Of a stretch of 64,000 nucleotides of DNA, positions 6,001-48,600 are shown one piece after another. This DNA is from Owenia fusiformis. Lineage: Eukaryota; Annelida; Polychaeta; Sabellida; Oweniidae. Location: NCBI GenBank assembly GCA_903813345.2, contig CAIIXF020000006.1, positions 27,659,936 to 27,723,935 on the forward strand. The letters run 5' to 3'. Made by a program: the position numbers and the translations under genes. A model generated the notes under the pieces. It was given only the letters and a program-made list of their open reading frames with translations, was not told the DNA's origin and did no database searches. Every line of letters begins with the position of its first letter. Position 1 is the first letter of the stretch.

Positions 6001-6672
6001 CAAGTAATACTTGTGCCTGGAAATGTCAAGGCATTACATTCTATTTGAATTCTTACATGTTGTAAATGTTTTATTTATATTTCAGTACAAGATACTCCTG
6101 TACGTGAGTAAACAGCAACAAGTCACCAATGCAAAGATTACTCCCGACTTCTCATTCACAGTAAGCATTTGATCACATAATATTCATGAAGAAATAATTA
6201 TTTTGGCTCTTTGTGTCCATTTATTTGGATGGAAGTATCTACTCTAAATCTGGTCGAATTTGACAGTTGGATTTCAAAAGAGAATCAGATATTTTACTAA
6301 CCATCAATCCTGGAGCCCATCTTTTTAACTACTCATGCCTGTAGCCAGCTTTTGCTACAGAGGGTTCACTCCTCAAAAATTCCAGGGGGGTCGCATTTGA
6401 CAATTTTGGCCCAAAATCACTTGAAAAACTGCATGCTTTTGAAAGAATTTTTGACAAAGGGGGAATTCGCACTAACCCCCGTTAATAACCTCCGTCATAA
6501 TAATCATAACAAAAAAGAGTAAGCCATACTATTGTATTATCTACAGAACAATCAATATATTTGTTATTTTAAGGTGCAAGCTGGGAACTATGCTAATTTT
6601 TATGATGATGCTCGTCAGAGTTGGTCCTTGATGTTTGATTCAGATGCAAATGCAATCAACTTTGCAAAACAG
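3021..6672 (+). CDS. FKBP15: FKBP15 exons 1-6: N-terminal motif and WH1 domain
   Basis: The exons are 3021-3073 (acceptor at 3000-3001), 4653-4756, 5147-5207, 5541-5610, 6086-6160 and 6574-6672. They encode residues 1-154. The start codon is preceded by an in-exon leader and matches the acidic start of other FKBP15 proteins. Residues 18-27 read like the vertebrate GGARLASLFGLD segment, followed by the conserved [11 protein letters not shown]. The WH1 (EVH1-like) domain runs from about residue 47 ([14 protein letters not shown]) through [13 protein letters not shown] to beyond residue 150. In vertebrates the domain is thought to contact WIP/N-WASP-type or endosomal actin factors. Introns 1-5 hold a MITE, a degraded repeat block at 3.38-3.84 kb and one copy of the TCACCACC repeat family, and nothing else I recognise. 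Confidence 0.93.
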
Positions 6673-9600
6673 GTAAAAAAACACTTATGTAGTATTCTCA
6701 AATGTAAAACAAAAAATTGTACAAATATATTTAAGGCTCGGGTAAAAGTTATGGTTCTAAATTTTGCTTTTTCAAATTGATGAGGAATGCAGTTTTTATG
6801 TCACCACCAAGAGTGGTGAAATATTGTTAAAATTTCCAACTTTTTTTGTGGCTGGTGTTCGGCAGTTGGTGGTTTGTGTGGTGTTTGGTATCAGTAACAA
6901 ATGGTAGGTGGTGACAATTGCATGTTTCTTTTTGTCAACCAAGTGACTGGGATAGAGGTCCACTGCCCAATGCAGACTCCTCTATACAATCTTACAATGT
7001 CATATGTACATTTTAGGTAGCTATAGCAACAGCTAACAGTGCAGCAGGGTCATTGACCTCCCTTGTCAGCCAAGATTTGTGTCTGGGGGAGGGGGGACCA
7101 TTAGAGACAGGAGACTCTGCTGAAGTGAAATATACAGGGTGGTTACATACAAACTTCACAATTGGACAGGTTAGTTCATTAGTGTTCAGTTGTTATACTA
7201 GCTCATTCTGTACAGTTTTCTAGTTGGCTTCAATGTCATGTAGTCTTTAACAATAATGGCTTACTCAGGACGTTTCGTTTGTTTGCGTATCTTACGTGTG
7301 TTCTGTTTGGACACATTCTTCATAGTTGTGTTTATATGGTTTGCAGGAGTTTGACAGCAATACCACAAAAGACAAATTGTTCAGATTCAAACTTGGAAAA
7401 GGCAAAGTCATCAAGGTAAATAACTAATCACAAATCATTCATTTTTTGATTAAAATAAAATTGAACCAAAATACCCCCTCTGCATGTATAGTAAAATGTC
7501 ACCCATTGGAATTTCACAGTTTTTGTGTGATGAAAGTTAGATATTTGAACTCATCTTAAAATTGGTGAGTACTTCATACTAACAGGGTGAAATGCTCAGC
7601 ATCAACTTTTTCTCAGCCATACTGAATGTGTTTTCAATGCTGGTGTCCTTCGTTGTCTGGAAAAGCATGTAAGCACCCGTGGATAGTTAAAAAATCAAAC
7701 ATTAAGAATAATGCACAAAAAAGAAATTAATTATATTTTGAATAAAATTTGTTATTGTAGGGTTGGGATGAAGGTGTAGTCGGAATGAAAAAAGGTGGCA
7801 AGAGATTACTTGTGGTGCCACCTATGATGGCATATGGGGCACAAGGAATGGGAGATAGGGTCCCACCAAATTCTACGCTAATTTTTGAAATTGAAGTTGT
7901 CAGGGTGAGTTATACTATTGATTTAACACTATTTTTCTTGTTTCAAACAGGCTTGTAAATTTAAGAATTTTTTTTATTAAAAAACAACCTGGAGAAAATA
8001 GCTCTGACTAATATGGAATATATATTATAAGAAGACTTCTTTATGTGAACACTTGAAAGTTCGTCTTCACTTCAGAGAGATGTTTCTATATCAAGAAATA
8101 CTGTACAAGGTCAACAATAAATGTACAGAATATTTACACATTTAGACACAAAAATGAAATGCAGTAAAACTTTTCTCTATCCGAATGCCACTAGGACTGG
8201 GCAAAAATGTTGTATATTGCAGATTGTAAAAATGGGACTGAAATAATGTTTTTACTGTATCATTATTTGGTTATTTCTATTTTGCAGGTAAAGCTGGCTA
8301 AAGAATACAAAGATTCCCCGAGTTCCAGTTCTGCCCCCTCTCCTGCTCCTACCCCCACCCCCTCTACAGAGACCAGTGCCCCTGGGGCAGATGGTGAAGA
8401 GGACTCTGTTAGGGCAAGAACACGATCCATCAATGAGCAGCTCTCCCAGGTAATTGTGAACGAGAAGTTGCATTTTTTCAATGTCAATCAAAAATGTTAA
8501 TGCATTTTATTTTAGAATTACATGTAGCATCATATCAGCTCGGTCAAAAATATTTTAGATTGTTGCAAGAACAATAAAGCCAGGCGGCAAAATGCATTTA
8601 ACGCAGTACATTATTATGACATTCTATTATATTATTCCAGTCTCCTACATCTGACAAGGCAAAGTTAATATCTCGAATGGCGAGGATGGGACAACCTATG
8701 GTGCCCCCAGTGCCTTCAGGCCATACACAGACAGACAGTGAAGATGAAGCGGTAAGTTATATGAATTTTTGATAATTTAGTTATGAACGAATTATCAATT
8801 GTTTAAAAATATTTTCTATTGTACTGATGAAGGACTATGGTAGGCTTTCAAAATGTCTATATTGATAATATTTTTTGAGAAAATTATTTATTTTACCTTT
8901 AAGGTAAGTATTATAATTTTTTAAGTTGTGAGTTGGCCTAATGTGACAATATTTAGGCCTTTTTGATTTTGCATAAAATTGCTAGTGTGCAAGTCTATAG
9001 AGTGGAAAAGTCCTGAAATATTGAATTCACATGAAGCAAAATCAAAGTACATGTAGTGAAATTCGGGGTTCATGGAAAACACATTTATAATAGATTTATA
9101 ATAGCCATTATGATAGATCATAGTTCTCAGTCATTGCTGATAGATGGAGCCATGAACTTGTGATGACTCATTTACAAGACCTACACATACAAGTATAAAA
9201 CTGTACTTAGATTCTCAAATGTGAAGTCTCTTATCTCCTTTATCTACGGTCTTAGGTTGACCCCTAGATAAGCATTTTGTTATTGTCGACAATAGTGAAA
9301 TATCATTGCCGACAGTTCTAAGACATTCAAAGCATGTGACTTTATGTAGTACATTTACATTAACAGTACAGTACCTCCTCTTTTAGTGGGATTCTTATTA
9401 ACTGTGTATCATGTGTAAAAGTAAGATTTTTATTTTTTCTATCCAACAATTCTGTTGAAACATAATTTCACATTATGAAATAAATTTGAATATAAATTAA
9501 TGATGTTGTTTACTTCATAATTTTGTGAACTTTTTATGTGTCACTATTTGTTTGAAAAGTGTAATCTTTGATAACTCAATACCAATACTCAGGGAGTTGC

Positions 9601-12600: not shown

Positions 12601-15600
12601 AAATTCCCTATTGGATCAACTAAGTGAGTATTCTTCAACCTTGATTAAATACAAAAAAACAGTGAAAATTCCAATTACTGGGAAATGCATTTCAAAAGTC
12701 GCTACTTTTGGGATGAAGTACTCTGTCAAAATCCCACCTCCTGAGACAATACTTTGTGTCAAATTCCCAACTCCCTTTGCATGGGAGGTCTCATGTAAAC
12801 CTTTGAATGGTACATTTTAGAAAGTTTCAAGTATGTAATTAGCTGACCAAATATGATAAAATTGTAGTCAAGAAAATTCAAGAAATCAAGCCAAAAAGCT
12901 GTAGTCCAAATCAGTGTAAATCAAAGTTATGACTAAAATGTACAATGTACATGTATGCCCTTATCAGGGTATGCTATACACCTAATATACTTTTACAGTA
13001 TTATTTGACTGTTGAAATGTATTATTATTTCTAGGCTGGTTTCCAGCAACAACCTTCTCAACCAATGCAGTATCAACAACAACCCAGTGTGCCTCAGTAT
13101 AGTGGCATCTACCCACAAGCTCAAGGTAGGGAACATATACAGTAAAACATTTATGTGGTGAACACCTATGGGGCCGCATAATATTCACTGTAGATAGGTG
13201 TTCACTACAGAGAGGGGATTTTATACAAATGTGTCTTGAAGTTGTGTTCACTAAACACAGGTGATCGCTAAAGAGAGGTGTTCTCTAAGAGAGGTGTTCT
13301 CTAAGAGAGGTGTTCTCTAAGAGAGGTGTTCTCTAAGAGAGGTGTTCTCTAAGAGAGGTGTTCTCTAAGAGAGGTGTTCTCTAAGAGAGGTTTTACTGGA
13401 TTGGCTCGGTATTGTATTTCCCTTGAATTTTTTATGGATTGCTCAATTTGACTAAAATGTCCATAGACTTTGGTGATTTGTGACCATTCAGTTGTGTAAC
13501 ATATTTTTGTGTCAACATCTTTTATTTCAGTTTTTTCTCATGAAAATGTTGACTTTAAAAACATGTTATCTTTTTGAAATAATTGTATTTATTGTAATTA
13601 ATTCATTGTACAATAAAAGCTAAATATTTATTTTATATCATCCATATAACAAATTGTCAAATTGTCAACATTCTCAAGTATTACTATACCTTGAATAAAT
13701 TCTGGTCAAATCTAAACAGTAATAATGAACTCTATTTTAGCACCCCCTCCTGCCCCTGCCCCCAGCTCTAACAGTCAAGACCCCAACCTCCCTGTGCTAC
13801 TGTCCGAGACCCGCCAACAGAACACAGAAGTCAGACTCTCACTCAGTAAGCTGGCAGACAAACTAGACAGATGTATGGAAAAAGTAAGTTGTTTTGTAAT
13901 GTATGGAAAAAGTAAGTTGTTTTGTAATGTATGGAAAAAGTAAGTTGCTTTATTAATGTATGGAAAAAGTATGTTGTTTTGTAAATGTATGGAAAAAGTA
14001 AGTTGTTTTGTAAATGTAAATGTAGAGGTATAATGATTTTATACTTCTGGTACCAAATAGACGTGGCGTATCAATCTAAAGCAAATAAGCTATTCGTTAA
14101 AGTGAATTGTTTCAGAGAAACCTTGAATCACATAAATTTTAATATATGAACAAAATTCTATTAACTTGCACATGTCTCTTAATTCAGAGCTTGATAAATT
14201 CATTAATATTAGTATATAACAGTAAAGGTTGACACTTCTGGAAAAATGTGCAAGTATGAGATAAATATGTTATTTAGATGTTAATAGTGTATATTTTAAA
14301 TATCTTCTTGTAGTTAGAACAACAACAGTCCAATCAAGGCCAGTTAGCATTACATTCCAACATGCCTGGAATGGAGACTGCAGTATTGGTACACAACATA
14401 CAGAGATTAGCTCAGGTAATATTTAGAGGTTATGTCACTATCGTGGCATATATGCCCGAGGTCTCAGTGACATATGGCCCAACCTTGGGAGGGACATTGA
14501 TCTCTGAGAACCAAGGGCATATGTGCCACGATAGTGACATAAACGATTTATAACATACCTATGCTGATGTAGACTGGTCAGAGAGTACCGTTTTTTTATA
14601 GAATTGACAAACAAATGGTTTGAAAATGATTGAAATGAGTTTAGAAAAATTGCTCGCGCAGTTTTATCTTCGATTGATTGGTTATGACGTCAGCGCCTTG
14701 ACCAATCAGAAAGTTAGCGGGCGCGGGCTTTTCAAAACTTATATTGGCCCGCTGTCTTGTGTACACTTTGCACTAAGGTATGTTATAAGCTTCACTTATT
14801 GAAAAAGATTATCTGAATGCCACTGAGACCAGCCAAAAGTGTTCTGAATGGCAGGTGTTCACATAACAAGGTTTTTAACATGAGAGTCTATGGCAGATTG
14901 AAAAATGTGATTGAAAAAGCATTCACATTGAGAGGTGTTCAGATTAGAAAGGTGTTCAGATATACAGGTGTTTCTGTATTTGAATATTATAGTTTCAGCA
15001 TTTCATCAATCCCTGACTCCCTATTTAATTTCTATGAATTAAGAGCTAAATGTTTAACATGTAAAAATATTTGAAATAAAGTAATAAAAGAAATAGTTCC
15101 AGCACTTTAGAGAATCATTCATTTTATACTTTATGGAACGATGTTTGCAAACACCTTTAGAGTCTATTGACTCATCTTAAACATGTTTACATTATCTTTT
15201 TTTCAGGAAAGTGAAAGTCTTAAAAAAGAAGTATTTGAAAAAAGTTCCAAAATTGATATTCAGAATGAAAAAATCTCTGACCTTCTCATGAAGAACCAAA
15301 AGTAAGTTTTACTCCATGTAACTTCATTCTTGTCATGAATTTGAAAAAATTGGTCTAAAACAGTTGCATCATGTTAGGAACGAATTTGGTGTAGATCTGT
15401 TATTGCAAAAAAAGTGACTCATACAGTCATACCAAAAGATCGCCTGATGGTTGAACAAATAAACTGAAATTGAAAATTATTCAAATAACCTCCTCATAAT
15501 AGTTAGATCAGATGATAATGAAATCACCTCAAACAATATTTTGGAAAAGTATCCTAATTAATTTTCAGACATTTTTGTGAGAAATGATTTATTCCTTTTT

Positions 15601-18600
15601 TCTTGTTTAGATATATTGAACAAAGCAACACAATGATGGAGGAAAGGAATGCCACTTTTAAATCTACCGCTTCTCAGTCACAAGCCAGGGTACTCACCTT
15701 AGAACAAGAGAAGGTATGTTTTGCATTGTGGGAAAATTGTTGCATCATGGGAAAATATTGCATTGTGGGATAAGTGTTCCATTATGGGAAGTGTTGCATT
15801 ATGGGATTGTAAAGCATTGTCTGATAGTAGTGTGCTAATAGAATTCCACATTGAAATGTACATGTACTGCTTCAGTCATAAGCCAGAGAACTCCCTTTTA
15901 GAATAAAAGAAGGAAAGTGATGCTTTTTGTGATACTGTGCTGCATTGTGAGAGAATATTGCATTATGGGATATATAAGCATTGTGGGAAAATGTTGAAGC
16001 ATGATATTTATGCAATGCACATGAGAAACTTATATGAGTGAATGTCAGTGAACTTGTATCTCAACAACATATTAAATTTTGAGAAAACAATTTTGAAGTT
16101 TAGATGAAAGTTATTCAAAGGTCACTGTGACCAAAACTGATTATATCTCAAACAAGCATAGCAATAAAAACTTCATGTCTGGGTGTTATTCATTTTTTAT
16201 TTTTTACTGGTCATTAATCGTGGATTACTGAAATACTTTTAAATATCTTCATCTGATAAATCGTCTGATTTTTTACAGGTTCAGTTAGCAACAGACCTCA
16301 GCCAAGCGACGTCACAACTCACGACGTTACAACTAGAAGTGACATCTATAAAAAAGAAAGAGGCGGAGCTACGGCAAAGTCTGGATTCATCATTAGCAGA
16401 GGGTAACAAGCAACGAGACGAATTAGCAACTTTACGCACATCACAGGCTGGTGAGTTAATTTTTTCATAATGTTGTCTGTTTTAGTATGCAAGCATGTAA
16501 ATTTCTTAAAAGAAATCTTGCTTTATAGAAAATTAACCTTTAGTTAACTACATGACTCTGTGTTATTCCTTGCTTGGAGTCATTTTCCACTCTTTAAAAG
16601 TGTTATATGTTGTTGTGACCTTGTGCTACTGGGCATGTAGGTGGATGGGTGACACGTAACTTTTGTTATCAAAAATCCAGAAAAAACACTTTTCCATTCA
16701 ACTTGAAATATTGTCAGATTCAAGAGTGGTCTATTTCAAATGTTTGATTAGGTTTTGGGCATGCTGGGTAAATTGCATGCTCTCTAAAGTGCGATATTTA
16801 TCATTCTGTTTCTTGTTAAATATGACCAACAAGTGGAAAAAATGACATACTGTAAAACCTGTATATCTGAACACATCTATTATCTGAATCTGAATCTCTC
16901 TAATATATGAACTCTTTTTCTCTGTGCTAATCTCCCATTTAAAATCTTGTTTAAGATCCTTGAAATGCGAACACCTGCTATTCCAAACATTTTTTGGCTG
17001 GTCCCAGTGGAGTTCAGATTAGACAGATTTTAATGTATGTATAGATGCTAAAACATGTCTAAATGCATTTGTAAAACTTCAAACACTAAATTGATCAGAT
17101 AAAAGTGTTTGAGTAATAGTACAATAACATTTATAAGAGACTTAAAAATAGGAGTTGCAAAGTGTTCACATTTCAAGGTGTTTAGTTTAGACAGTTGTTT
17201 AACCCTTTCCCGACGTGAAAATAAGAGGAAAGTGTTGGCTTGGTGATGGTTAAGTAAGATCAGTTTTTAGGTAAAAACTTGAAATGACATATACCCCGGG
17301 ACCTATGGTTTAAATTTCATCACTAGAATACAATTTTTAATAAGCATTATAACATACCTATGATGATGTATCGTGTATAACTGTTCACAAGACAGCGGGC
17401 CAATATAACTTTTGAAAAGCCCACGCCCGCTAACTTTCTGATTGGTGAAGCGCTGGGACTACGTCATACATTAGGCCTAGGTCAAATTGACTCGGACTTG
17501 ATACAAACATGGGAATAAATCATCATTTCTGAACCATTGCTAGTCAATAAGATAAGAAAACGGTACTCTCTGACCAGACTAGATCATCATAGGTATGTTA
17601 TAAATCGTTTATGTCACTATAGTTGCACATATGCCCTCGGTTCTCAGTGATCAATGTCCCTCCCAAGGTCGGGTCATATATCACTGAAACCCTCGGGCAT
17701 ATATGCAACGATAGTGACATAACCTCTAATTATCACATGTGAACAACTTGTTAAAATTTGGTGTAAAAATGCTGAATAGAACTGGAGATATTGTCATTTC
17801 ATTGATGTATGTAAATGAAAATAGCGGTGCCAAAAGAAGCCTATCGTCCCATGGTTTTATTATAATATGCCTTTACAACATGATTCAACTCTTCACGCAC
17901 ATCCAAAACATAAAGTTTGAAGTGTCTCCTTCCTTTTCAAATTTTATGTCATTAATTTCTAGTGAGTTTAGGTCATTTTGACTATTTCAGATATATTCAT
18001 ATAGGTTAAACCAGACATATTTAAGCTTGGAGGTTTTCAAAAAACAGTGGATATATTATCTGCTGTTATATATTGAGGTCACAAAATGGTCAGGTCTCGA
18101 GATCTCATGTGACCATTGTTGAGCAATATTAATGCTAGAATAAAAGATACAAAGACAAAATTGCAATAATGCAAAAATAGATTTCTATAATATTCTTACC
18201 ATTGTGTGTTTTACAATGTACAGTAAATCTCCCATTGACTGAGATATTAAGAAACATTGAACACAAATTCATCCTACTAGTTTTGACCAGCAGCTTTCGA
18301 ACTTCACAGGTTTTACTGAATATTGCCATACCACTCAAAATCTACCCTGCATCATTTCAGCTAGCCTGCTTACCCTCTGAGATTTACAGATAATTTAGCA
18401 GGTTTAGTGCTTATAAGATCTTAATAATCTCCATAGAACTGCTTTCACAAATTTTTATGAAAATTTGAATGTTCAGAGGACAAACTTACCTTCAACAGGC
18501 CCATAGCTAGCTTTTGCCAAAGAGGCTTCAGTTTTCAAAAAATTCCAGGGGAAGGTTCACATTTGACAAGTTTGGCCGGCCCAATATCACTTGAAAAGTG

Positions 18601-21600
18601 CTCAGAATGGTGAAAACTGCATGATTTTGAAGGCATTTTTTGCCAGGGGGGAGGGGTTCGCTATGGGCCTGCTTTAATGACCTATTATCGAAGAGAAGGT
18701 CCTTTGCCAAGTTGAAGTGTTCAAGTGATGCTGCCAAATAGTGAAATTGCCTCCAAACAAAAATTGATAATAAATGATTGTATAAAAAGATACTCTATCA
18801 AAACATTTATGCGTGATAGAGTGGGAGTTTGTTTACATGTAACTCTACATCAAACGTTTACCTGAACAATCTATGTTGATACATGCATTGATACAAAATG
18901 CCCTAACCGTTTTATCATTAGAGCCATATACCTAACTAACCTACGCAACTCAGTGCTATTTTTATTTAACATGTAACGAAACATATTAAACAGTCAGTTA
19001 ATTAATATTCTGATCATAAACCTGGATTCAATGTCTGGTGCAATTCGTCGAGCTTGGGACTCGTTGTTCCGGACAGTTTTAGATGTGGACACACAGACAG
19101 ATGATTGTGAAAATGCCATCGAGGCTTTGGCAAACTCAGAAGGTATGATTGACTGTCTTGGAGCGATCATTGCTGTGTTGATCAATCATTAAACAATCAT
19201 CAATCATCTTTCACAGTAAAATGATCAATCATTGAAAAATCATAAACTGTTATAATTGATGAGATGTAAACAATAAAGTGGAAAAGGCAATAATCTTAAA
19301 AAGGCAAAAATCTAAAAAAGGCAATAATCTTAAAAAGGCAAAAATCTAAAAAAGGCAATAATCTTAAAAAGGCAGAAATCTAAAAAAGGCAATAATCTTT
19401 AAAGGGTTTATATAGTCCCTATATAGTTCAGGGAAAAAATCATTTCCAGCAAATTAATTTCCCTAACCTTGAAAAATCTGAGAATTTGGCGCTGCCAAAA
19501 TAACGGTCTGATCAATGGGAAAGATAAAAGATCCTTAAATAAAGATTGATTTCACATTTAAGCCTATACTGTTGAATTATTTTTTTATTAGAAGTACTCT
19601 ACATCGATTCTGATGTTATAACATGGTCTATTTAAAACTGAACTCTCCCCCTTGGCAAAGGGGAGACCCCTGGCTACGGGTCTGCTAAGTCAACATTGGT
19701 TTAGATTGTGAGGAGAGAAAATATGAGATGAGTAAATCAATTGTTTACATTAGATCAAAATATGTGAATTAAATTATTTGGATAAATAGATAGTTTTGGA
19801 GAATTTCAATTGAATGGATTAGAATAACTTCTATAGAAGGGAATTTATGCCCCCTTCTTTGTTCATCAGGGTCAAGTTAGTATTTACAAACTTATTTGGC
19901 ATCAGTATTTTCGTTTTGACTCAAAGTAAGAGGTGCTCCCTCTGTGAATGTTAACAAAACTTAATGCTTTCATCAAAATTGATCAAAATTAGCAATCAAA
20001 TAAAAAACTTCCACTTGGGAGGTGTTCCACTGACAGAGGTACATTTAACAATAAGTCAATAGGCTGCAGGACTTTGAAAAGGTTCCACTTATGGAAAGGT
20101 TTTACTGTAAATGGGTTCATAAACTCAGGCGGATGAGATACTGGGGATGTAAATAAACTGAAATGACTTCAAATAGTCTTACTTAAGTTGAAATGATAAG
20201 TAAATGCCTGATATTCATGTCAAATGCAATAGAAGAACTCCGGATATTTCCTGATAAGTGAAATCTCATTGAAATGTTGGTTTATGTTTGATATTGGAAT
20301 GATGTTCTATTCAGTTCAGGCTATAAATGTAAACAAAATCTATGTCCTTAAAAAATAAAATGTGTGCCAGTGTGTTTGGGATGGAAACTATTCAAGTGAA
20401 TCTACTTTCAATGTAAGGTACCCAGGAATGGTAAGTTTAAAATTTTGGCATAACATATACACTTACATACTAGCATATTACATTTTGCATGTACATGTAT
20501 GTGTATTTGAATATCATACAGTATATTCAGTTGACGATCATATAGGAGTTGATATTGCAATACTTAAACTGCATATAACATTGAAAGCATATGCAACGCC
20601 AATGCTTAAAAGATTCAAATACCAGGTAAATAAAATATATTAATTGTTTCAATGTTGATAAAAATGAACTGTATATGGCGTAGTAAATATTTTGATTCTT
20701 CATTCATAGTATTGGTAATGGTTTGCATGATTGGTTGTGTTATATTTATTGAAAGTGTTATATACCGTTGGAAATGCTGGTTATTGATAGTGTTCCATTG
20801 GAAATACTGGTTGTAGTCTACTTACAGTGTGAGGCTGATATCTTGTATTCAAAACTCATATGACAATTTTAAAGTGTGATAACCAATTGAAATTTGATAT
20901 ACCAATGGAAAGTCTGATATATTCTACTTGCAGAGAATGACAGAAGGATAGAAGAACTGAATTCACTTTTAAAGGCAGAAAAACAAAATAGGAAAACTAG
21001 AGACACAAAAATATCAACCTTAGAAGAAGAAATGGCGGATTTAAAAAATACTAAAGATACATTGGAAAAGGTAAATACAAACTTATATCATAAGAGAATG
21101 TTTGATATATTTTTAAAAAAGTCTACTTTGTACTTTATTCACAATATCATATTTTTGAAATTCAAATACTCTCAAAAAGACTTCAGCATTAGGGAAAAAT
21201 GATGTCATCATCATATTCTAAGTATGAACATTTTTTTTTGCACTGAGTTATGTTTTTCCAGACATTATCTGATAGAAAGAAAAAAACGGCTATTGAGCTT
21301 AAAAAATCAGAGGACGAGCTTGAAGAACTGAAGGCCCAACATGAGGTAAGTAAGAGAAAAATGCTCGCTAAATCTAACAACACAACAAATAACTGGATAC
21401 AGGAACAACTGACGTCATTCTTTGTTTTCATAAACCAAAAAATTTCACAAAGATATCCCGGGATTATTGGTCAACGTACAAGTAGTTACAAAGCAGCTAT
21501 AAATCCATTGAATGACATATTCATTTAAGCATTGTTTTTATTAAATTTTGACCATTTTCATGCCACAATTGACCATTTGCTTTATAGATGGGTAAGTAGT

Positions 21601-24600
21601 ATGTGTGTTGGTAGGGCTAAATACTTGCATTTACAATGGAAAAACTGAAGTTATTTAGTTTCTTAATATATTGAATATTTCCAAATGGATTAATAGAAAA
21701 CTCCATTGGCATCAACTAGATGATTTTTGATGTTTAAATTGCGATTTTAAACTTAAAATTGTGATCTTTAAAAGGATAAATCAACTTTCAAAGATTTTTA
21801 ACATTGTGTCAATGGAGACTAATAGACTACCTATTCCATGAACGTTCAAAATCCTTCGAAATTGAATCAAATAAATGTGACAAGAAAATCATGCACATAC
21901 ATGTTATTCATATATGTCATGAATTAGGGCTAAGTCTTCAGTGGTTAAATATGCAAAGGAGGAGGGAAAGTATCGAAACAGATTTTGGACAGTCATACGC
22001 TGGATTTTGGCTATTTTCTGAGTATTTAAACAGGTGCATACTACATATGTTAGGCCAATGCATTATCTCTAGGAAAAGCACTCATAGAGATGATAAAATA
22101 ATTTTGACTTTGAGACAGGAGAGATGCAAACACCCCCCCCCACATGTTTTTTTCTGAAATGTTGTCCTGATTTTCAACCCCTTCCACCCCTGCTTTTTCA
22201 ATTTTTTGTAGCCAAAAATCAACATATGACTGTCAGAAATCTATTGCGATACTTTCCCTCCTCTTTTCTTAAAATCTCATTCGAAAGGACACTTTAGTGA
22301 GTTTATATAGCAAAACTATGTAGCAAATGGCTACTTGACTCACAAGCCATTATGATACCTGTAATCTAACTTCTTTTTGATCATGGCATCTTCTCGGTGA
22401 CCAATGTCACTTCTACTGTAAGGTTATTTCAATACTTTGACACTTTAAACATACATGAAAAACCATAAATAAGGCATAAAAAGTATGCAGTAGGTGTTTG
22501 CTAATTCTAATTCATGAGATCAGAGGTGATGATGCGCTCGTGTTTTCTGTTTGCTACTTTATGAGAGATGTAGTTCTATAAATCTTAGTTGATCATTGAA
22601 GGTGAATATTCACATTTTATGATTTGTATTATATATAAATAGGTGCAATATAAAAATCTCTTTGCATGTATTTCTTTATAAGACAAGGAAAAATTAAGTT
22701 TGGGTGACTTTAATCAAATTATAAGGATATAAGAAACTATTTGAAAACACATACCAGATTGGAGTGAAATAATGTGATTTGCAAAAAAACATGAAATTAA
22801 GATGGCAAAATTGATGAAAATAATTGCGCTCACCAAATTGATCTGAAAAGTATTCAATATCTCAGTTCAAAGAGTGGCCAGTGTTAAAGATGTTCCTTTT
22901 GGAAGTTTGGATTTGAAAATAAAGGAATTAAAAAAAGGGACTGAACGCATATTGGGCAGTTAGAAATGGGTTGTACGTCAAGTCAGTCTGCCACAGATGT
23001 GCCTGATGATAGGAGTAAACAACCTTTAGTCCAAGATGAAGTAAGTGGTAGCAGGCCCGTAGCCAGGGAGGAGGGTTTGATGAGTTCGAGCGAACCTCCC
23101 CCCCCCCCTGGCCAAAAAATCTTTGCAGTTTGTCACCATTCTGAGCACTTTTTAAGTGATTTTGGCCATTTTTGGACCAAAATTGTCAAAATTGAACCCC
23201 CTTGGAATTTTTCAAAAAGAGAACATCCTCAACCAGCCTTCGCAAATCCTGGCTACGGTCCCGGGTAGAAATGTAGAGTGATGCATCCCACCAGATTTGT
23301 GCAATTGGGGAAATGAAAGATGATAGAATACACTCAACTCTTTTGATGATGCAAAGAGACGAAACCCGTTCCAATATTACTGATTTTTACAGATAATTGT
23401 GTATTTATTTCGTGACAAATCTTGTGGCTTACTTTATTGTCACATGTCTATAGATATTTTCAGGACATGTATTTGTAGAATCAACAAAAAGTGAAATTTT
23501 GAATGTGGTCACTACACTACCAAAGTGTCCTTTTAGGCTCAGTAACTGGTGAATAACTCAGATGCCAGTAGGCTGTAGTTACCAGTTTCACCACCAGGTG
23601 GCTTATTTGGGCCAGATAGCATAGCATTTATTAAGATATTATCAGTTATGGGTTCAATTTTCATACCATCCCCATGTATCTAATAGTTATGCAAATCAAA
23701 ATATGTCCAGTGAAAATAAAATGTTATCTGTCAAATACAAAATGGATATTTCACTTTTTGTGATATTATAACATGGGGTCTATGTTGAATCTCCCCAAAC
23801 TAGAAGTTACATTTTTCCCCAAAAATTTAATTTTCAAAGTTGATGAACAATTTTCAAAACCATATTTCTAGATGTACTTTTAGATGTTTATTTCAAATAT
23901 GACATCACTTTGACTGAATTTTGAATATTTAATGATTTAAATCAAGATTATTTCTACTCGCATCTAGTCTATTGAGTTATGACATGAGAATAAATATATA
24001 TAGATTTTTTCAACCTATATCAGGGCCCATATTCCAGTACTTATGTGCATAGCCAGATGCAAATAATTAGACAAACCCAAAGATGTCCATAGATATGTGT
24101 CAAAATAGAGTAAACCACAAGATTTCAAATAAAACAAATACAAAATCATCTATTAGTATTATGATTTTTCACTGAATTGTAAATCACGCCTAACCATCGA
24201 TAAGGTACAGTGACAAAATATACCGTAGTACACTTTAAATGTACGATGTCACTATTTAATTGATTTGAGCAAAGACAATGATGCAGGTGTGATGTTGGTT
24301 TAAAAAAATTAATCTTGGGAATTCTTTGATTAGATTAGATCTCTCAGATTATTTTTAAAACCTACATCAAACCTACGTCATTGTCTTTGCTTCAAATCGG
24401 TTAAATAGTGACATAGTACATCTAAAGTGTACTACGGTATATTTTGTCACTGTACCTTGTCGATGGTTAGGCGAAGTAAATGCTGTTTATGCTTATCAAC
24501 TAAACACTAAAAATGATGGAAAACCACTTGTCCCATTTTATTGTAGTAAATTAATGTTATTTGAATGAATTTATGAGATTTCTAAAGTAAAGAAAGAGTA

Positions 24601-27600
24601 CAACTTTGGTCAAGTGTCCACTAAGTGCTTTGATATACAACTTCAACCAAACACTGCACATATTTTAGGCTTCTTGAAAATGGGTCATTTTGGATGTTCC
24701 TTTTTTGTTACACTTTGAGCACCATTGTCCTCATGCTAACTAAGTGCAATTGTTTCTATCATTCACAGAGATAAATGTAAAAAAGCAGAGACAAATCCAT
24801 GTATTTGGAGAATTGTAACTTTGTTGTTAAACTAAGCTAACTAAGTGCAATTGTTTCTATCATTCACAGAGATAAATGGAAAAAAGCAGAGAAAAATCCA
24901 TGTATTTGGAGAATTACAACTTTGTTGTTCAACTAAGCTAAGTGCAATTGTTTCTATCATCCACTATTCTCAGTCTCCTAACACCTGATACATGTTATAC
25001 ACTCTTACATCCTTCAGTCTAGACTTTGATATGAATGTGTTATCAGAAAAACTACTTTACATCATAAAACACATGTTCAAGTACATGTACTTCAATCAAA
25101 TTATTCTTTGCACATCCCTTGTATTATTTTGTGGATTTTTGTTGATGCATTTTTGATTCAAGTTGGATTCAAGCAATATTGATATTAAAGAATAATGAGC
25201 TACGGAGGATAATCAATGATGATGGTCTGATACATCATTCATCCAAGGGTTTATTTAAAACCCTGGGCTTCGTATTTGTACCAAATGAAACTAAACAACA
25301 AGACATCCAGGGCTTAGTATTGCCTTTATTAGACGCTAAGTGGATAAGTATTGGTTGGTAGAACAGTAAACAGTAAAACGCTGAATGCCAAATACATCGA
25401 AATTGCAAATGAGGCACGTTTACCCTTGATTGAACTTAGTGCTATGGATATAGACATTCGTACTGTAATAGAAGTTGCCGCTGGGCTGATTGTGTCTGTG
25501 TTCGTTTTTGTCTATTGCAACTGGGAAAGAAGCAAAGAAAAGAACGGAGAACTTACGGTAATTCAAGTTCTTATTTTCCCAACTAAAGGACAGTTCTGAT
25601 ATACCCATATGAGCAAAAACAAAAAAGTATATGGGTGGAAAAAATAAAAACACCATGGACTTATTTTTTACATGAACATGCTTTCCCGAATGTTACACCA
25701 TGGGCTTTCAACTAGAATTGAAAGACCATGGTTACAAATAGTGGTACATGTATACCGGTTACAGGTCCGTAGCCAGGATTTGCCAAGAAGGGTTCACTTT
25801 TTGAAAAATTCCAGGGGGGTTCATTTGTGACAATTATGGTCCAAAAATGGCCAAAATCACTTAAAAAGGGCTCAGAATGGTGAAAAAATGCATTATGTTG
25901 AAAGATTTTTTGGCCAGGGGGGTTCGTTCGACCCCAACGAACCCCCCCCCCCCCCCTTCCTGGCTAGGGGCCTGCGGTTACGTCTAAAACGGTAATGTAC
26001 TTTTCAACATTGTGGCTTTCCAAGTACAAGGGCCGATCAAAAAGTTTTTTTACCATTGGCTGTCGATCTTTCAAAGTCTAAAAGTTACAGCAACTGAAAC
26101 CTTATGAATGAAGATTATGTTTGAGATGAATTGCAATTCGTAGCAGAGTTAAGACACTGTTATTCATTAATAATTTCATTAGAATCTTTGAAATTTGCAC
26201 TTTGTGCAGTATATCTACAGCCAGTTTCAATGTTAAGAGGAAGCATAGATCTAGATTCAGTGCCCTGGTTTGAATTATTGCTAATTTTGCTGAAAATTTG
26301 CTAAATCTTTTTGTTTACTTAGGTAAGTTCTAAAACAAATTATGGCCAATATTTAATGCTTAAATATTTGTGATTGTATTTTTATATTTTTTTTAAAAAA
26401 GAAATATTTTTATTTAATTTGAAAAAAAATCCATAATTGCTCAAATCAATTTTGGTGAATGAGGGAGGGAGAGTCATATAGACTAATAGGTTACATTTAA
26501 TGACAGAAGTAAAGAATTGAAGTTAAATCCCAATAATATCTATTTTAAACATCATTTAATATTGTTAATGGTCAACTTTCACACTGCTATATATCATGGC
26601 AACAGAAAAAGAATTATACCTTCAATAATTTCACTTAAAGCTGTCACAGGTTGGAGAGGTCTAAGGTGAAGTGTACCTGTAATCACATCTCTTAACTCAC
26701 CTTTACATTTGCATTAACATCAAAGGGATCCACCAACAGGTGTTGACAGGTAAAATAAAAAATAAACAACAAGGTATTTATTGTACATACGTAGGCATGG
26801 CACAAACCACTAAAATAAACTAAAATGTGAAATTGACTCGAGCAAAGCCTATTGAGTTTTAAATCTACAGGGGACCTTAATAAGGTGTACATGCTAACCA
26901 TAAACCTGGCGCTGAACTTAATATAGTCTATGCATGGCACACATCCAGTAGTGCTGCATTAACAGGGCACAAAATGCATATGCCTATGATAGATGCATAA
27001 AAAGTAAATCGTAACACATTACTTGATATTTCATTCATAATTTATTATTCAGAGATGTAATTATGATTGAACTTTGAGAGGTGCATATAGATTACAATTC
27101 TCAGCCATTGCCACTTTGGAAAAATCAATCAGGAAGTCTAACAAAAAATTGGAGTTCGGGGTATAATTTCGCAAGATTTGGAGTATAAATTAGGGGCTAT
27201 TCACAATGGAGATGATGAATAACACAGCTTGGTTTTGGACAGGGGTCGCAGCGGGCATTGGTGTCCTGTATTGCCTTAGACGATGGGGTATCATAGAGAA
27301 ACAGGTACTTAACTCGTAAAACTTGAGCTACATCTCTTGATTCATCAAATATGATTTTAATGTGATTTAAGGTGGAATATCCGACATTTATCTACTTGGA
27401 AATTCTGGCACAAAAAAAACAGAAATATATATGTATGACTAGGGATATGATACTAATTAGCATAAAAAGTCAGATATGAAATACACAAGTGTCAAATGCC
27501 AAAAATAATATTAGTCGCCATTCTGTTATTCTAATGAGTGAACCGTATAAATACAGTAAAACTTGTCGGAGGGAACACCTTTTTGTAAAGGATACCTCTG

Positions 27601-30600
27601 TGCACAAGGAACAGTTTACAAAAGAACCAAATTATTTTCCATTGACTTACATGTTATTGTACCCTCTCTGTAAGGAACACCTCATATGTATACTGTATAG
27701 TAAAACCCAACTTACAGTATCTGAATGCTACTGGCACCAGCCAAGCATAATTTGATTGGCAGGTGCTCAAGTTTTGAGGTTGTGTAACTCTGAAGTCAAT
27801 GGCATATTAAAAAACGGAATTGAAAAATGTTCACATTAAGAGGTGTTATGAAATTAGAGAAGTGTTCAAATGTGCAGGTTTTACTTTACTGTACTGTATT
27901 CATTCATTAAAGGGAATGAGCTTTTCAAGCCAATACTTAGGAGATGTTGTGTTTAAAGATATTAATGCCTTTGAGTATGAAATCAAAATTCAGCCCCCGC
28001 CCCTCCAGGAATATGACTTGTATGTTAAATGATATTTCATTGAATTATATTACATTGTTGTACTGAGTCAATGTTTACTTAAGAATTTCCACCTGAACCG
28101 TAAGAAAAATAAAATGAAATTGAAGTGTTTGCACAACTTTGCAGGTTCCAAGGTTATATGAGGCACACCCACACGACTACTTTAGTTTGTGTATATGTCT
28201 GAGTAAGATTTATATAAGTGTGCACTATCACATCCTACATCATACAGTCTCATTGTATTTTAACTATCACATATTTAATTGAATTGGCATTTCAGATTAG
28301 ATGCTGATGACTTAATACAGTTTTCTCAGTAAACCACCTTGCATAAGTGAACTAATTTGCACTTTTTGGTTGAAATTGCCTGTTAATTCAATTAAACAAA
28401 CTTTGAGAAGAGATATGTAGAAGCACTCCATCCATCAAATATTTGTTTATCTGTCTCCAGTACCAGCTAGATTAGATTCTCATCATATAGACAGGATTCT
28501 TGCTATGGATAGGATTTTTAATATGCTTGTTTGTTCAAAATGGCCCCCATTTTAGTGGAATTTGCTTCACCATTAAGTTGGTGTTTATCTCATTGTATTT
28601 TCTCATCTGGAAGTAGAATTTTGATTTTGGCCATTACTCATATTAAACCTTCTAATAAGAACAGGCCCGTAGCCAGGATTTGCCAAAGGGGGTTCACTTT
28701 TTGAGCTATTTTTTAAAAAGTGCTCAGAATGGTGAAAAACTGCATGATTTTGAAAGATTTTTTGGTTCGCTCGAACCCAGCGAACACCCCTGGCTACGGG
28801 TCGAAGAATTAATGTCTATATTTTCATTAATGAATGATTACTTGATTGTGAATGCAGCTTGTGTTTGTCCATGTGTTACAGGTTGAGGTTCAAGACTTGA
28901 AGGAAAAGTTACGCAAACAGAGGAGCTCAACAGATGTCGCCACTGCAGAGCAGGTTCGTTAACTATAAATTCATTAACAATAAATTCATAAGCATAAGTT
29001 AGGTATTATTTTGCATTAAAATTTCAAATCTACCACATTAGATGACTTTTAACTACATTGTACTAATATGGTAATAATTAATGTGTAATAATGTGTTTAC
29101 AGTTCAAATAGATACATGAAATTTGTATTTAGTTGGAAGTGTGAAAGTGTCAATTAAATACATACTCTATTATGCTCATACCACACACATTTTAAATGGT
29201 GTGTATATATTACATTCGCCATTTGCATGTGGCATTTGTGATTTTTATGACACTATCAAAAGTGGTGACATACTGTTATAGTCTCCAACATTTTTTGTTT
29301 TGTGGATGGTGTTCGACATGTGCCAGTTACCGTTCGGAGTTCAGTGTCTGTAACAAATGGCAGGTGGTGACATTTTGCATGTTAATGCCTTGTCTATAAA
29401 TGCAGCATTAACCTATTATTCCATCCCATATTTTCACCCATAATTTGCCCATTGTTTTACAGGTTTCGCAGGTGGAGGCAGAAATCACCAAAGAATGGAA
29501 GGAGAAATCAGAGCGCCAATTGTTGGCTGCAGAGGAAAAGCACAAACGTGCCCAAGCAGATTTAAATGAGGAAAAGCAACAACTTGAATCCAAACTCAAA
29601 CAACTGGAGGATAAGGTGAGTTACGTTTAACACAGGCCTGTCAACTGTCCCGCAATTTGCGTATTTGTCACGCATTTGCTGAAGAATTTGAAGTCACGCC
29701 AGTTATTTTTGCGTGACAGAAAATGTCACGCAAATACGCATTTTACCTGGTAATTGTCAAGCAAAAATATTTCTGTAGAAAAATTTCTAAAAAAGATCGT
29801 CTGCACAGCAGAAATACAAACGCCGGAAAAAAATGTACGCATTTAGTTCGGACTTTTCACGCGAATTACGTATATGTCACGCATTCCGTTCGTAAATTTT
29901 TTTCCTTCCCCCCCCCCCCCCCCCCCCCCGTTGATGGATGTTTGAAACGCGAGCGTAGCGAGCGCGAAAAATTTGAGGTGTTCAAAATTTGGCAAGATGT
30001 AATAATATGGAAACCAAGGTGTTCAAAATTTGGATAAAGGTGTTCAGATTTGGACCAAGGTGTCCACATTTTGAGGGGAGGTGTTCAACATTTCCAAGTC
30101 ACTCATGTTAGGTGTTCCCAAGTTGACAGGCCTGTTAACATGATGTGCTCCACCCACTATGGCTCATTGGCAGAGCCAGTTAATGCTTTGCCCTGGGTTC
30201 AATTCCCAGCTCAGACAAATTTGTTCGTCTGTTAAATTATTCTGGTGTTCAGGATGTTCTTTCTGTTCTTGAATTTTAAAACCATTTGAGACGTTACAAA
30301 TACATATTCATTCTTGACAATGTTGTGTAAGATATACAAAGAAAGAGGAAAGAAATCAGCCATGACTCGAGGTAAAATACCCGTTTAGTATAATATTTTC
30401 TTTTTTCACCCAGGTGGTATTACTGAAGAGTAGCCAAGGAGACAGTGGGAAGAGAATATCTGCTTTAGAAGAGGAATTAGATGAATTTAAAGTATGGAGG
30501 GATAAGGTAAGTAATCATTGAGTAATCAAGTCACTGGTGATCTGCTCGATTACACTGGTTACTGAAACGGTTCGTTTTGGTAACAAAATGTGGGAACGTC

Positions 30601-33600
30601 GAAGGTATGATTTTTCAGTGAAGTAATGAACCTCATAGAATGACACAACATAAGCTTTTACAAAATTACATCACTAGCAGAAATAGTTTTGAATATGATG
30701 CTTTATGATGCGTTCTTGCGTAACTACCAGAAACAAAGGTGAATTACATACAAATGATCTCCAGTAACTGACATTATTAATGCTTCTGGTAGAAACACAA
30801 AAACTAGAACGAGGACGATAGGTACTACACCTATCGGCAGAACTCAAAACTACATTTCTGCATTGGTTACACATAAGCCGAATGTTGCTGAATCCACAAG
30901 AACACATAGCAACATTTATATACTATCCTGACTGGAGGGAGAGGCTCTATTATGGAGAGAGAGAATAGAGCCCCTCCCCACTCAGAAGAGTACATAGATG
31001 TTGCTACATGTTCCTGTGGCTAATTCAGTTAAATATACTCTCAATTTGATCAGCTGTTTTTATTTTGTCCTTGTAATGTTTTTATCATGTATATGAAAAT
31101 AACATGATAAATGGTCCATATTTCGCTTTTATCCAGTAGATTTCAAATTCTGCGGATGCACCTTGCCTGTTTGTAATCTTAAAGCAAAGGTATGGGGTCA
31201 CAGGGGTCTAAGGTTCTAAAGGGGCTGAATAATTACTAGATATTTCAAAGGGTAGAGGTCAATAAGGGCGCACTTCAAAAGAATACAGGTTGCCATTGGA
31301 AAACTTGATGAAATAAATCTTTGATAAGAAAAAAGAAAATGGTGTAATTGTCTGTCTCTGTTTTAATTCAATAACAGGAAAACTTGTCTCGGTGGAACAC
31401 GTTTAGTACCTCTAAAAAGTGTTCCACATGTGAGGTGTTCCACTTTTAGAGGTTTGTTCCACATTAAGTCAGTTGGTCTTTTGACTCGAAAAGTGTTCCA
31501 CTTACAGAGGTTTATTTAACATTAAGTCAGTTGGTCTTGGTCTTGGGACTCTGAAAAGTTTTTCCACTAACAGAAGTGTTCCATTTCTGGGGGTGTTCCA
31601 CTTTACAGGTTTCACTGTACATTTTTCACATTTTCACATTTTTTCACATTTATTTGTTAGTATGACAAGCTATGAAAACAGGCCCAGGTTTCACTGTACA
31701 TTTATCACATTTTCACATTTTTTCACATTTATTTGTTAGTATGACAACCTACGAAAACATGCCCAGGTTTCACTGTACATTTTTCACATTTTCACATTTT
31801 TTCACATTTATTTGTTAGTATGACAAGCTACGAAAACAGGCCCAGGTTTCACTGTACATTTTTCACATTTTCACATTTTTTCACATTTATTTGTTAGTAT
31901 GACAACCTACGAAAACAAGCCCAGTCAATGAAGGAGAAATACGAGGCCAGGATATCAGATGTGGAGGCTGAGAGGGATGAAGCACAGGAAGAGTTGGAAT
32001 CACAGGAAGAAAAGACCAAGGCAGCTGTTGCTGCAGCTGTAGCCAAATCAACAGCTGCTGGATCTACTACTGCAGCACCGAGTGGAGATGCGGCTCAAGA
32101 GGTGAGATATATATAACTTATATATAACTTTTATTGACATCTTGTATCATAACATGATTACATTAGTCATAACTATGAAAAAACTAAATATCTAAACTAC
32201 AAATACTAACTAAGGCAAAAGTACAAAAATATATACGAGATATACAAAAACCCAAAATAAAGGTAGTATACATCATGATGAAAGGACAAGGTTACATTTA
32301 TAGTGTGGTGCACATACCCTGCATTCTGACTACAAATTCTTAAATGAATGATAAATGAATTTTCCAATGTGTCTTTGTAATGTTAAGTTTTTACTTGAAA
32401 TGAGATTGACAAATAAATTTTCACTATTGAGGTCAAAGTTACTTAGAATTTCACGAGCCTTAGTGTACAATAATTGTCTATGCTCATCATTCTTTGTACA
32501 AGTTAAAAGGAAATGACATTCATCCTCTATATGTTTACAGGTATTGCATAATCTTTCCTCTCTAGGTTTTGGTTTTGGCTTTGCATGTCTTCCGGTCTCA
32601 ATCGCCAATCAATGAGAACTCATTCGAAATCTACTTATCGCCAATCTATACTTTTTATTATCTAATTTTAAATATAATTCAATTCTAAAATCTTTTTTGA
32701 ACAATTTATACGTTCTCAGTATAGGATAAATGTTCAAGTCATTTTTCCATTTTTCTACAAATAATACCTTCAACTTCTTTTCTACCATGCTCACTAGATT
32801 GTCAGTATTCATAAAAGAGCCATATGACATGATTCGTAATTGAAATCCATACTGATAAAAACAGGAAAATGTCAATATCTGAATGCTTAAGTTTGACATC
32901 TTCTCTTTCTGCTACAGTACTTTACATGTAAAATAGACCGTTTGTAATCTAGAAAAGAAACTTTGTTTTCAAAAGCACTGTCGGTATTGAACTTCCCTGG
33001 TGGGATGTATAGATTAGGAAATAAAGAAAGTATGGCATAAAAGAGTCACATGCAGATCTCTGCTTCAAAAAAATCAAGTACATATATCAGGAATTGTTGA
33101 ACCCTTATAAGCTTCTACTTATTTGCCATGTTCATTTTCTTTGTTTGGATAATATGCCCAATATGGTGTCATCCCCATCTGTATCTGTTCGAAAATAAAT
33201 TAATGAAAAAAAGCTTCCCTCTACAGATTTTTAAGTATACTGTTGTCTTTGTTTACTTGTAGGTGAAGAAGGTCATGAACCAGGTCTTCCACAGTGTTAA
33301 GACAGAATTCAAACCTGATCAGACATTTACTGGGCAACAGGTTGTGCAGTCTATTCTACAGACAATCAAGGTAAGCATTCAAACCTGACCAGACATTCAC
33401 TGGGCAACAGGTTGTGCAGTCTATTCTACAGACAATCAAGGTAAGCATTCAAACCTGACTAGACATTTACTGGGCAACAGGTTGTGCAGTCTCTTCTACA
33501 GACAATCAAGGTAAGCATTCAAACCTGACTAGACATTTACTGGGCAACAGGTTGTGCAGTCTATTCTACAGACAATCAAGGTAAGCATTCAAACCTGACT

Positions 33601-45600: not shown

Positions 45601-48600
45601 AACATAGCGGTTGTGTGCATAATAGCATGGCTTGTAGTTGTAGAGGAATCAGTGGTATCAGCCATAGAAGAACCTGCTATGAGTGTGACTTCCACCTCTA
45701 CTGGGGGTGGCGGTGGGAACCCTTTGTATGCTGCAGAGCTACAGAAATCTGATAAAGAAATGAGAGGTAAGTGTGGTGTTCTAACCACCAAGCTTTGTCA
45801 ATGTATTTTGTCTGTATAGTGTTTTTGAATACCTATCTTAATTGAGTTTGTACATTCCGTATCAAAATCATATGATTTGTCTCCTGCTAATCTCCTGCTC
45901 ATCTTTGTATATGAAAAAAAGCGGTTATGTACATAATAACACAGCTATTATACTAAACCAAGCTTCAAAATTTTAACTGCTATTTTGAACACCTGTCTGC
46001 CTATTGTGAACACCTACCTAAAGTAAACACCTTGAAATGTAAACACTTTTCTTGTCATATTACATTAATTTTTGTGCTTATAAAGAAATTAAATGTAAAG
46101 AAATTACATTCTGGGTAAATTTTAAGGTGGCCATTTTGGATTTTCCGTCCTAAAATCTTCACTTTCAAGACTTGTCTACAGGTTTTCAGCCAAACCATTT
46201 GAGGGATTCATCTGAAATTTTCAGGGATGTTTCTATAATTCAAAGTCAAGAACTGATTAGTTTTTGGGCATTCTGTGGAAAATTTTAAGGTGGCCATTTT
46301 GGATTTTCCGTCCTAAAATCTTTACTTTCAAGACTTGTCTACAGGTTTCCAGCCAAACCTTTTGAGGGATTCATCTGAAATTTTCAGGGATGTTTCTACA
46401 TATCAACGTCAAGAACTGATTAGTTTTTGGGCATTCTGGGTAAATTTTAAGGTGGCCATTTTGGATTTTCTGTCCTAAAATCTTCACTTTCAAGACCTGT
46501 CTACAGATTTTCAGCCAAACCATTTGAGGGATTCATCTGAAATTTTCAGGGATGTTTCTACATATCAACGTCAAGAACTGATTGGTTTTTGGGCATTCTG
46601 GGTAAATTTTAAGGTGGCCATTTTGGATTTTACATCCTAAAATCTTCACTTTCAAGACTTGTCTACAGGTTTCCAGCCAAACCATTTGAGGGATTCATCT
46701 GAAATTATCAGGGATGTTTCTACATATCAACGTCAAGAACTGATTAGTTTTTTGGCATTCTGGGTAAATGTTAAGGCTGCCATTTTAGATTTTCCGTCCT
46801 AAAATCTTGTCTATCGAGGCTTGTCTACAGGTTTCCAGCCAAACCGTTCAAACTTTTACATATGTTACACAGTGATAAGTTCTAGAGCTGATTAACTTTT
46901 CTGTGGCCATCTTGCTTTCTTGGTCAACAAGATCACAATGCTGTGTTTTAGGTACGATATTGTTCACGTCTGTGCCTTGTTAAATATCTCACAATTTTTA
47001 GAGATGAAACATGTTTCCTCAATTTCAATCTGAATCTCAAGATAAAATACCTCTAATATAGTACATTTAATATGGTGGTCACTTTTAGCTCATTCCGAAT
47101 GTGTTCACATGGGACAGGTTTTGTTGTAGTTTGTGAAATAATATAATGATTTAACAAGGCAATATATATTTTACACATAAAAATAAGGTAAGAAGACTGG
47201 AAGGAATTTTTTACCTGCTTTTTTTAATGTGCCTATCTTAAAATGAAAAAATTATACATTTGATTTATGAACTGATGCTTGTGCAAAGATAAATTCAAAG
47301 CATAAACTAACACTTAATCTGGTTGTTGATTAGAGAGTTTGAGAGCTGTGGTGGAGAATATCATAATGGCTGAGGAACAGGTCGCAGATAAGCCAGGTAT
47401 AAAGGGCGGAGTGGTGGAAGGGGAGGTTATAAGGAATACGGGGAGGTTATAAGGAATATGGGGAGGTTATAAGGAATACGGGGAGGTTATTATAAGAGAA
47501 AAGAGATTATTCTACCTCATTCTGAAAATGCATGATTCCTCAATTTTCTCTTGTTGGATGCTTTATTGTTCCAATTATTATAAGCACATTTTTTTGGCAT
47601 ACTGTTGGTGATGGGAGTATAAGCAATATGGGGAAAACATGCAGAAAACAGCATATCATAAAAATCTGAAAACACATGGTGAAGGGAATGCTTGAACCAA
47701 AATGACGGCCCAAATGCATATTAGATGTCCTGGTTTATAGGTTTATATTCTTATCCTTCCCTACATGGTAAATATATTTTATATATCCATCTGAGGTGTT
47801 AAACAGTTGATACCCAACTAATCTTGGCCATGGACATAAAATATAGGTCAAAATTATATATCAATGGAGTAAGTAGGGAGATAGGTTCATGATTTTGGTA
47901 ATTTCTTCTAACTCTTCAGGTGAGTTGTGGGTGTAATCAACTTTACTGTCCATAATACAAGTGTATAATAAAATATAATGAGTTAAGAATCAGCACATCT
48001 ACATGTACTGATGTAATTGTGTTTAACTCTTTTACTTGTCAGTTGTAACCATCTATAATTTTACACTTTTGAATCCCTTGTAAAAACCATGTTAATGACG
48101 TTCTGTACTGTCACAATATTTTAATCTTGGTTCAATTTTTTTCAGATCTGTCTCAATTTTAATCAAAAATGCTCAGAAATTCAACAAAATTCCTGCAAAA
48201 TTCTGCCTTTTCACTTGCAGAATTCATCATTTCAACTTGCTGAAAATAAGGAGGAGTGATTAAAATATGTTTGTTAAATTTAACATAATTTCAAAGAAGA
48301 AAATAAATAAACAAAACAATGTTTGTTCTTCAGCTGAATCTAGTCAAAAAACAGACGCCAAGAAAGATGATTCCAAGAAAGACGATTCCAAAAGTAAGAA
48401 GGCCGAGACAACAAAGTCAGACAAGACAGATGGTGACAAGAAACAGGATGACAAAAAGAAAGATGACAAGAAAAAGGATGACAAAAAAGCTGCAATAGAT
48501 TTCCTGAAGGGTGTACCTCCACCATTGTTTGGAGACGACTCAGATGATGATAGGTGAATTTCTTGAATTTATATTTTTGTTTTTTCTGATTTTATTTTTT

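Follow-up and report, generated by a model that had tools for sequence, protein, structure and literature searches.

Candidate alternative first exons with anchor-like N-termini in two introns of the FKBP15 gene of Owenia fusiformis

Does the FKBP15 gene of the annelid Owenia fusiformis begin anew within its own introns, each time with a different membrane anchor? The question is raised by a window of 64,000 nucleotides (contig CAIIXF020000006.1, positions 27,659,936 to 27,723,935; the window is this whole stretch, and all coordinates below refer to it), in which FKBP15 occupies about 4.6-50.6 kb of the plus strand. Two long introns, 16451-20933 and 21346-28881, split its coiled coil, and an earlier note on this DNA had pointed to four ATG-led frames inside them as first exons that would give FKBP15 interchangeable membrane anchors. 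We re-derived the frames from the sequence and found all four, their donors and their target acceptors at the positions given there. They are probably alternative first exons, which would lead to short, membrane-tethered FKBP15 isoforms without the FKBP domain. We consider this the best reading because chance is a very unlikely source of the frames, whose N-termini moreover resemble anchors. The four candidates are:

19031..19142, plus strand: candidate first exon 1; 37 amino acids (aa) plus 1 base, phase 1, would join 20934-21070; amphipathic N-terminal helix.
22966..23040, plus strand: candidate first exon 2; 25 aa, phase 0, would join 28882-28953; N-myristoylation motif plus Cys3.
25444..25557, plus strand: candidate first exon 3; 38 aa, phase 0, would join 28882-28953; transmembrane-like segment.
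27206..27304, plus strand: candidate first exon 4; 33 aa, phase 0, would join 28882-28953; hydrophobic stretch with RR behind it, short and only marginally a membrane span.

The gene is FKBP15, as judged from its FKBP domain, its FKBP15 coiled-coil domain and its LFGDD tail. Twenty-three exons were rebuilt, from 4653 to 30506, with 850 residues open; those at 4653-6672 translate as an open N-terminus (the putative region of a WH1-like domain), this reconstruction did not recover the first coding exon, and the 3' exons were left outside the joined chain. The translation matches the FKBP-type isomerase domain PF00254 (E 4.4e-31, 107.5 bits) and, over profile positions 3-222 of 224, the coiled-coil domain PF23649 (168 bits, E 3.3e-49). 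In the latter alignment, 220 residues (74-293) lie on 220 profile positions, with no net gap over the junctions 16450/20934 and 21345/28882. Insertion of 19077-19142, the part of exon 1 behind an in-frame acceptor, brings the 168 bits down to 145, and on this ground exon 1 can be ruled out as a constitutive exon. From this drop and from the lack of a net gap it follows that the gene is ordinarily joined at the two junctions, with the four frames as additions. The main chain is in phase 1 after 16450 and in phase 0 after 21345. The constitutive coiled-coil exons next to the two introns are:

16279..16450, plus strand: exon ahead of the first intron, ending in phase 1.
20934..21070, plus strand: predicted partner of exon 1; PF23649 runs over the junction with no net gap.
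21262..21345, plus strand: exon ahead of the second intron, ending in phase 0.
28882..28953, plus strand: predicted partner of exons 2-4, supported by the exon chain and PF23649.

Thus, several ATG exons fit, as open frames, the phase of a common acceptor: three in phase 0 for 28882 and one in phase 1 for 20934, the donor of the latter being AGAAG/GTATGA after 19142. Splice-site weights, amino-acid scales and hydrophobicity scales used in our scoring are approximate. If a donor score of at least 2.1 and a length of at least 20 aa are required, 13 ATG-to-donor frames are present in the two introns, eight in the right phase and five in a wrong one. The four named frames are indeed in the right phase, but the chance of 1 in 81 that had been attached to this is an incomplete and unfair figure, because eight right-phase frames exist and only four were named. 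Nor do the frames stop at their donors, as had been stated: they stay open for 4-75 further codons, the first stop being reached 53, 100, 51 and 37 codons from the ATG in exons 1-4, respectively.

What sets the four apart from the other right-phase frames is their protein-like composition. Exons 1-4 score 9.4, 6.1, 3.3 and 5.7 bits; the remaining four (starting at 16552, 17769, 19847 and 25672) score -6.4, -12.8, -4.4 and -2.5 bits and look like random translation of AT-rich DNA. No further right-phase frame reaches 0 bits, even when the donor threshold is lowered to 0.5 and the length to 15 aa. By the same score, 18 of 21 real exons reach +3.25. One may suppose that 12 kb of AT-rich intron is simply rich in ATG-to-donor frames, from which attractive ones were picked, and the presence of eight right-phase frames, four of them with chance-like composition, speaks for such a view. 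In 100 kb of the same chromosome, taken on both strands and in three phases (real genes are included and some frames share an ATG), 22 frames score at least as high as the lowest of the four per 600 kb-phase. For the two introns in one phase this gives 0.44 expected vs 4 observed (Poisson P ~0.001); the composition threshold was chosen post hoc, after the four frames had been seen, and for this reason P values serve as guides only. A fourth-order Markov model, trained on the FKBP15 introns with the four exons masked, yields 0.069 expected per 12 kb per phase vs 4 observed, and none of 450 simulated stretches held more than one. When donor thresholds of 0.5-2.1 and lengths of 15-25 aa are tried in the simulation, the expectation varies from 0.04 to 0.21, and the observed number is constant at 4.

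With the composition cut-off unchanged, the gene itself furnishes further controls. In the two introns, 0-1 frames were counted in the wrong phases and likewise 0-1 on the antisense strand; 27 other FKBP15 intron stretches (26.3 kb, all phases) hold none, and the antisense strand of all 29 intron stretches holds one. The excess over the genomic control is confined to the phase and the intron. Taken together, it is very unlikely that the four frames arose by chance, the signal being well above it.

The start context points in the same direction for three of the four. RnnATGG is present in exons 2, 3 and 4 and is rare elsewhere, with 10 cases among 121 control frames, 443 among 4750 ATGs and none among the other four right-phase frames; the binomial chance of at least three such contexts in four is ~0.002. 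By CpG per 100 bases, exons 1 and 3 rank in about the highest 10% of controls and the two other exons do not; this measure was not used as support.

The N-termini of the four frames look like membrane anchors, though not all to the same degree. Under fixed anchor rules, exons 1-3 pass, as compared with 9 of 162 control frames. The amphipathic moment of exon 1 is 0.58, which only 2 of 162 control frames equal; the cut-off for this moment in the rules is exon 1's own value. Exon 2 starts with MGC and fits the myristoylation pattern, with Cys3. This pattern occurs in 2 of 162 controls, which are two lengths of one open reading frame, and in 6 of 1342 simulated peptides. In exon 3 a clear hydrophobic segment is followed by K/R, and its insertion score of -0.17 is good on a home-made scoring with an approximate scale. 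Of the membrane-targeting styles proposed earlier, the "two transmembrane spans" are one each in exons 3 and 4, of which the former is good and the latter marginal. That the anchors would be interchangeable, and would lead to different membranes, is inferred.

Several observations weigh against alternative first exons. Exon 4 has an insertion score of +1.48, which 11 of 162 controls attain as well (four of 162 also with two K/R after the segment), and it misses the hydropathy rule with 1.16 vs 1.5 required. Exons 3 and 4 end in weak donors (2.1 and 2.3; two of 23 constitutive donors are weaker still, at 0.9 and 1.7), and at a donor threshold of 3.0 exons 1 and 2 alone survive, leaving 2 observed vs 0.03-0.06 expected in the simulation. 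Synonymous codon use lends no support, with -3.3, 1.2, -1.6 and 0.8 bits for exons 1-4; exon 1 even falls below all 21 real exons (lowest -1.6), though the model was trained on those exons. The start context of exon 1 is poor, and at 19077 an in-frame acceptor with a score of 2.1 lies within the constitutive range. Concerning the counts, real DNA clusters: among 60 control blocks (10 kb, one phase each) one holds three hits and three hold two. If all sense introns and phases are pooled (38.4 kb), the genomic rate predicts ~4, which is the observed count. If the composition cut-off is relaxed to 0, 0.24-1.35 frames are expected (donor threshold 0.5-2.1) vs 4, and the other introns then hold 3-9.

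Some of these points, namely the post hoc thresholds, the two weak donors and the control block with three hits, favour a selection of attractive frames from chance material, as does the fact that 14 of 162 controls also reach the hydropathy cut-off. Against such a selection stand the simulations on the introns' own base statistics, the strong start context in three frames and the rarity of the anchor features among controls. We therefore regard it as unlikely.

Decidedly improbable, for the set as a whole, is that the frames are internal cassette exons, which would insert into the coil in frame by splicing and require no new promoter. This explanation is most plausible for exon 1 in the form 19077-19142, a 23-residue reading from phase 1 to phase 1, for which it is a live alternative because of the poor start context and the in-frame acceptor of normal strength; the lowered PF23649 score argues that such a cassette is at any rate not constitutive. 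In exons 2-4 no in-frame acceptor scores above -1.3, -7.2 and -2.6, respectively, which speaks against cassettes but is indecisive, as three of 21 constitutive acceptors are low too (-4.2, -1.7 and -1.5); moreover, a membrane span within a coiled coil makes little sense. Very improbable indeed is that the frames belong, as first exons or as remnants, to short genes of their own that sit inside the introns and are not spliced to FKBP15: the frames do remain open beyond their donors, but all four donors are in the phase of the next FKBP15 exon, the wrong phases are nearly or wholly empty at the composition cut-off, and no convincing paralogue of the exons was found in the assembly. The proposal of alternative first exons is supported in part: the frames are unlike chance and begin like anchors, and exon 1 is the weakest of the four as a first exon, given its poor start context, its low codon score and the acceptor at 19077.

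If the four frames are alternative first exons, each would be driven by a promoter of its own and spliced to the next coiled-coil exon, 19142 to 20934 in the case of exon 1, and 23040, 25557 or 27304 to 28882 in the case of exons 2-4. The resulting isoforms would be without the N-terminal and FKBP domains and would retain what follows of the coiled coil, together with the LFGDD tail. The parts of the gene that would be lost or kept are:

7017..7904, plus strand: FKBP domain exons 7017-7169, 7347-7415 and 7761-7904 (PF00254), not in the predicted short isoforms.
48334..48553, plus strand: tail exon with the LFGDD-type motif, limits approximate, from sequence; retained in the predicted isoforms.
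50516..50591, plus strand: last coding exon with the stop codon, end approximate, from sequence.

The 3' exons encode Ser/Thr-Gly-rich repeats with LFGDD-type acidic motifs at the end. The acidic C-terminus, which we take to be a marker of the FKBP15 family, is present in the window as a 12-residue stretch in the tail exon and as the last 19 residues before the stop. Exon 1 would supply an amphipathic helix, and its product would retain part of the conserved FKBP15 domain, more than those of exons 2-4. Exon 2 would contribute a myristoylated/palmitoylated start, and exons 3 and 4 N-terminal signal-anchor transmembrane segments that leave the coil in the cytosol. The products of exons 2-4 would thus run from the anchor through the residues of exon 28882 and the last part of PF23649 to the remainder of the coil and the tail. 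An anchored coil with its tail may hold the partners of mammalian FKBP15, named below, on membranes set by the N-terminus; alternatively, an anchored short form may compete in a dominant manner with the long one.

Alternative first exons or N-termini swap membrane targeting in AKAP1, small ankyrin-1 and junctin/junctate, which are proteins different from FKBP15. LAMTOR1 (p18) owes its late endosome anchoring to an N-terminus that begins with MGC and continues with an acidic, Ser-rich stretch. Exon 2 resembles this N-terminus and is not known to be homologous to it. The closest parallel is found in the KChIP genes (KCNIP1-4). According to excerpts of PMC3973911, their variable N-terminal exons place myristoyl, palmitoyl or transmembrane anchors before a common core and shift its location; DPP6 and DPP10 are named there as genes with alternative first exons. 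The principle of swapped N-terminal anchors is thus already known, and the likeness consists in the choice of an N-terminal exon being the choice of an anchor on a common core. There are also differences. KChIP is an EF-hand channel subunit and unrelated to FKBP15 as a protein; its anchor classes are spread over four genes (myristoylated in KChIP1, transmembrane in KChIP2-4); and its variants are reported as expressed, whereas the candidate exons of FKBP15 are known here from sequence. Furthermore, the start exons of FKBP15 are situated mid-gene and, unlike in KChIP, their products would lose folded N-terminal domains.

According to excerpts of PMC4024763, mammalian FKBP15 (WAFL, FKBP133) is recruited to endosomes by retromer, and it co-precipitates with both retromer and the WASH complex. 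The gene in the window shares with it the FKBP domain, the PF23649 coiled coil and the LFGDD-type tail. Among the papers listed in literature searches, mostly non-subscription ones, no report of an anchored or N-terminally truncated FKBP15 from intronic promoters was found, in line with the earlier remark that no such promoter array is known for FKBP15; in the one paper that contains both "FKBP15" and "first exon", the latter phrase refers to huntingtin. Tentatively, and with some doubt, FKBP15 in this animal lineage might be regarded as a double gene, which makes a long scaffold, carrying the FKBP domain and recruited by retromer, as well as short FKBP-less scaffolds from at least four internal promoters, with a common coil and LFGDD tail on lipid, amphipathic or transmembrane anchors, so that promoter choice would pick the organelle which receives the tail-binding machinery. 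If such isoforms exist, retromer would not be the only determinant of where FKBP15 sits in the cell, and the coil and tail would act in roles of their own, apart from the FKBP domain. An unrelated gene would join the KChIP-like design, in which the choice of the N-terminal exon is a membrane address, and would be an example of a scaffold with its anchor swapped mid-gene.

The assembly (498 Mb, 525 contigs) was searched with the DNA around each exon. In this word-based search, which skips very common words, no second copy of any of the four was found: exons 1, 2 and 4 have one match each, and other genomic matches of the exon 3 region lie in the flank upstream of it and enter the exon by no more than 3 bases. 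Copies on which substitutions could be compared, whether paralogues or other haplotypes, were sought as well, and none in the assembly was convincing (two weak hits, E 0.29 and 1.97). The 25-aa peptide of exon 2 had no match among solved structures, and a scan of viral contigs for FKBP15 relatives gave 23 pattern matches with no relative among them. The flank of exon 3 contains one further feature:

25241..25421, plus strand: old, diverged dispersed repeat upstream of exon 3, matched at at least seven other places in the assembly (69-89% identical in the aligned parts).

This repeat could be the source of a promoter for exon 3. Copies of a dispersed repeat, related to one another (cccgtagccagg...ctggctacggg), were noticed by eye in the introns at 18500-18680, 23050-23270, 25755-25975 and 28660-28805; the copy at 23050-23270 starts right after the exon 2 donor.

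Tandem repeats occur at other places of the gene. At 13871-14018 there are about five tandem copies of a 29-bp unit that includes the end of exon 13720-13883 and its donor GGAAAAA/GTAAGT, so that this splice site recurs through the first part of the intron. A 79-bp unit is repeated four times in tandem at 31606-31924 (96% matches) and comprises the 3' end of an intron, the acceptor and the opening codons of the exon that ends at 32101; this is a duplicated acceptor or a microexon array. A long exon at 43815-44737 carries six in-frame copies of a 153-bp (51-aa) repeat, and variants of its TGG-GNP-Y core are also found in open frames near 37168, 38470, 45021 and 45636.

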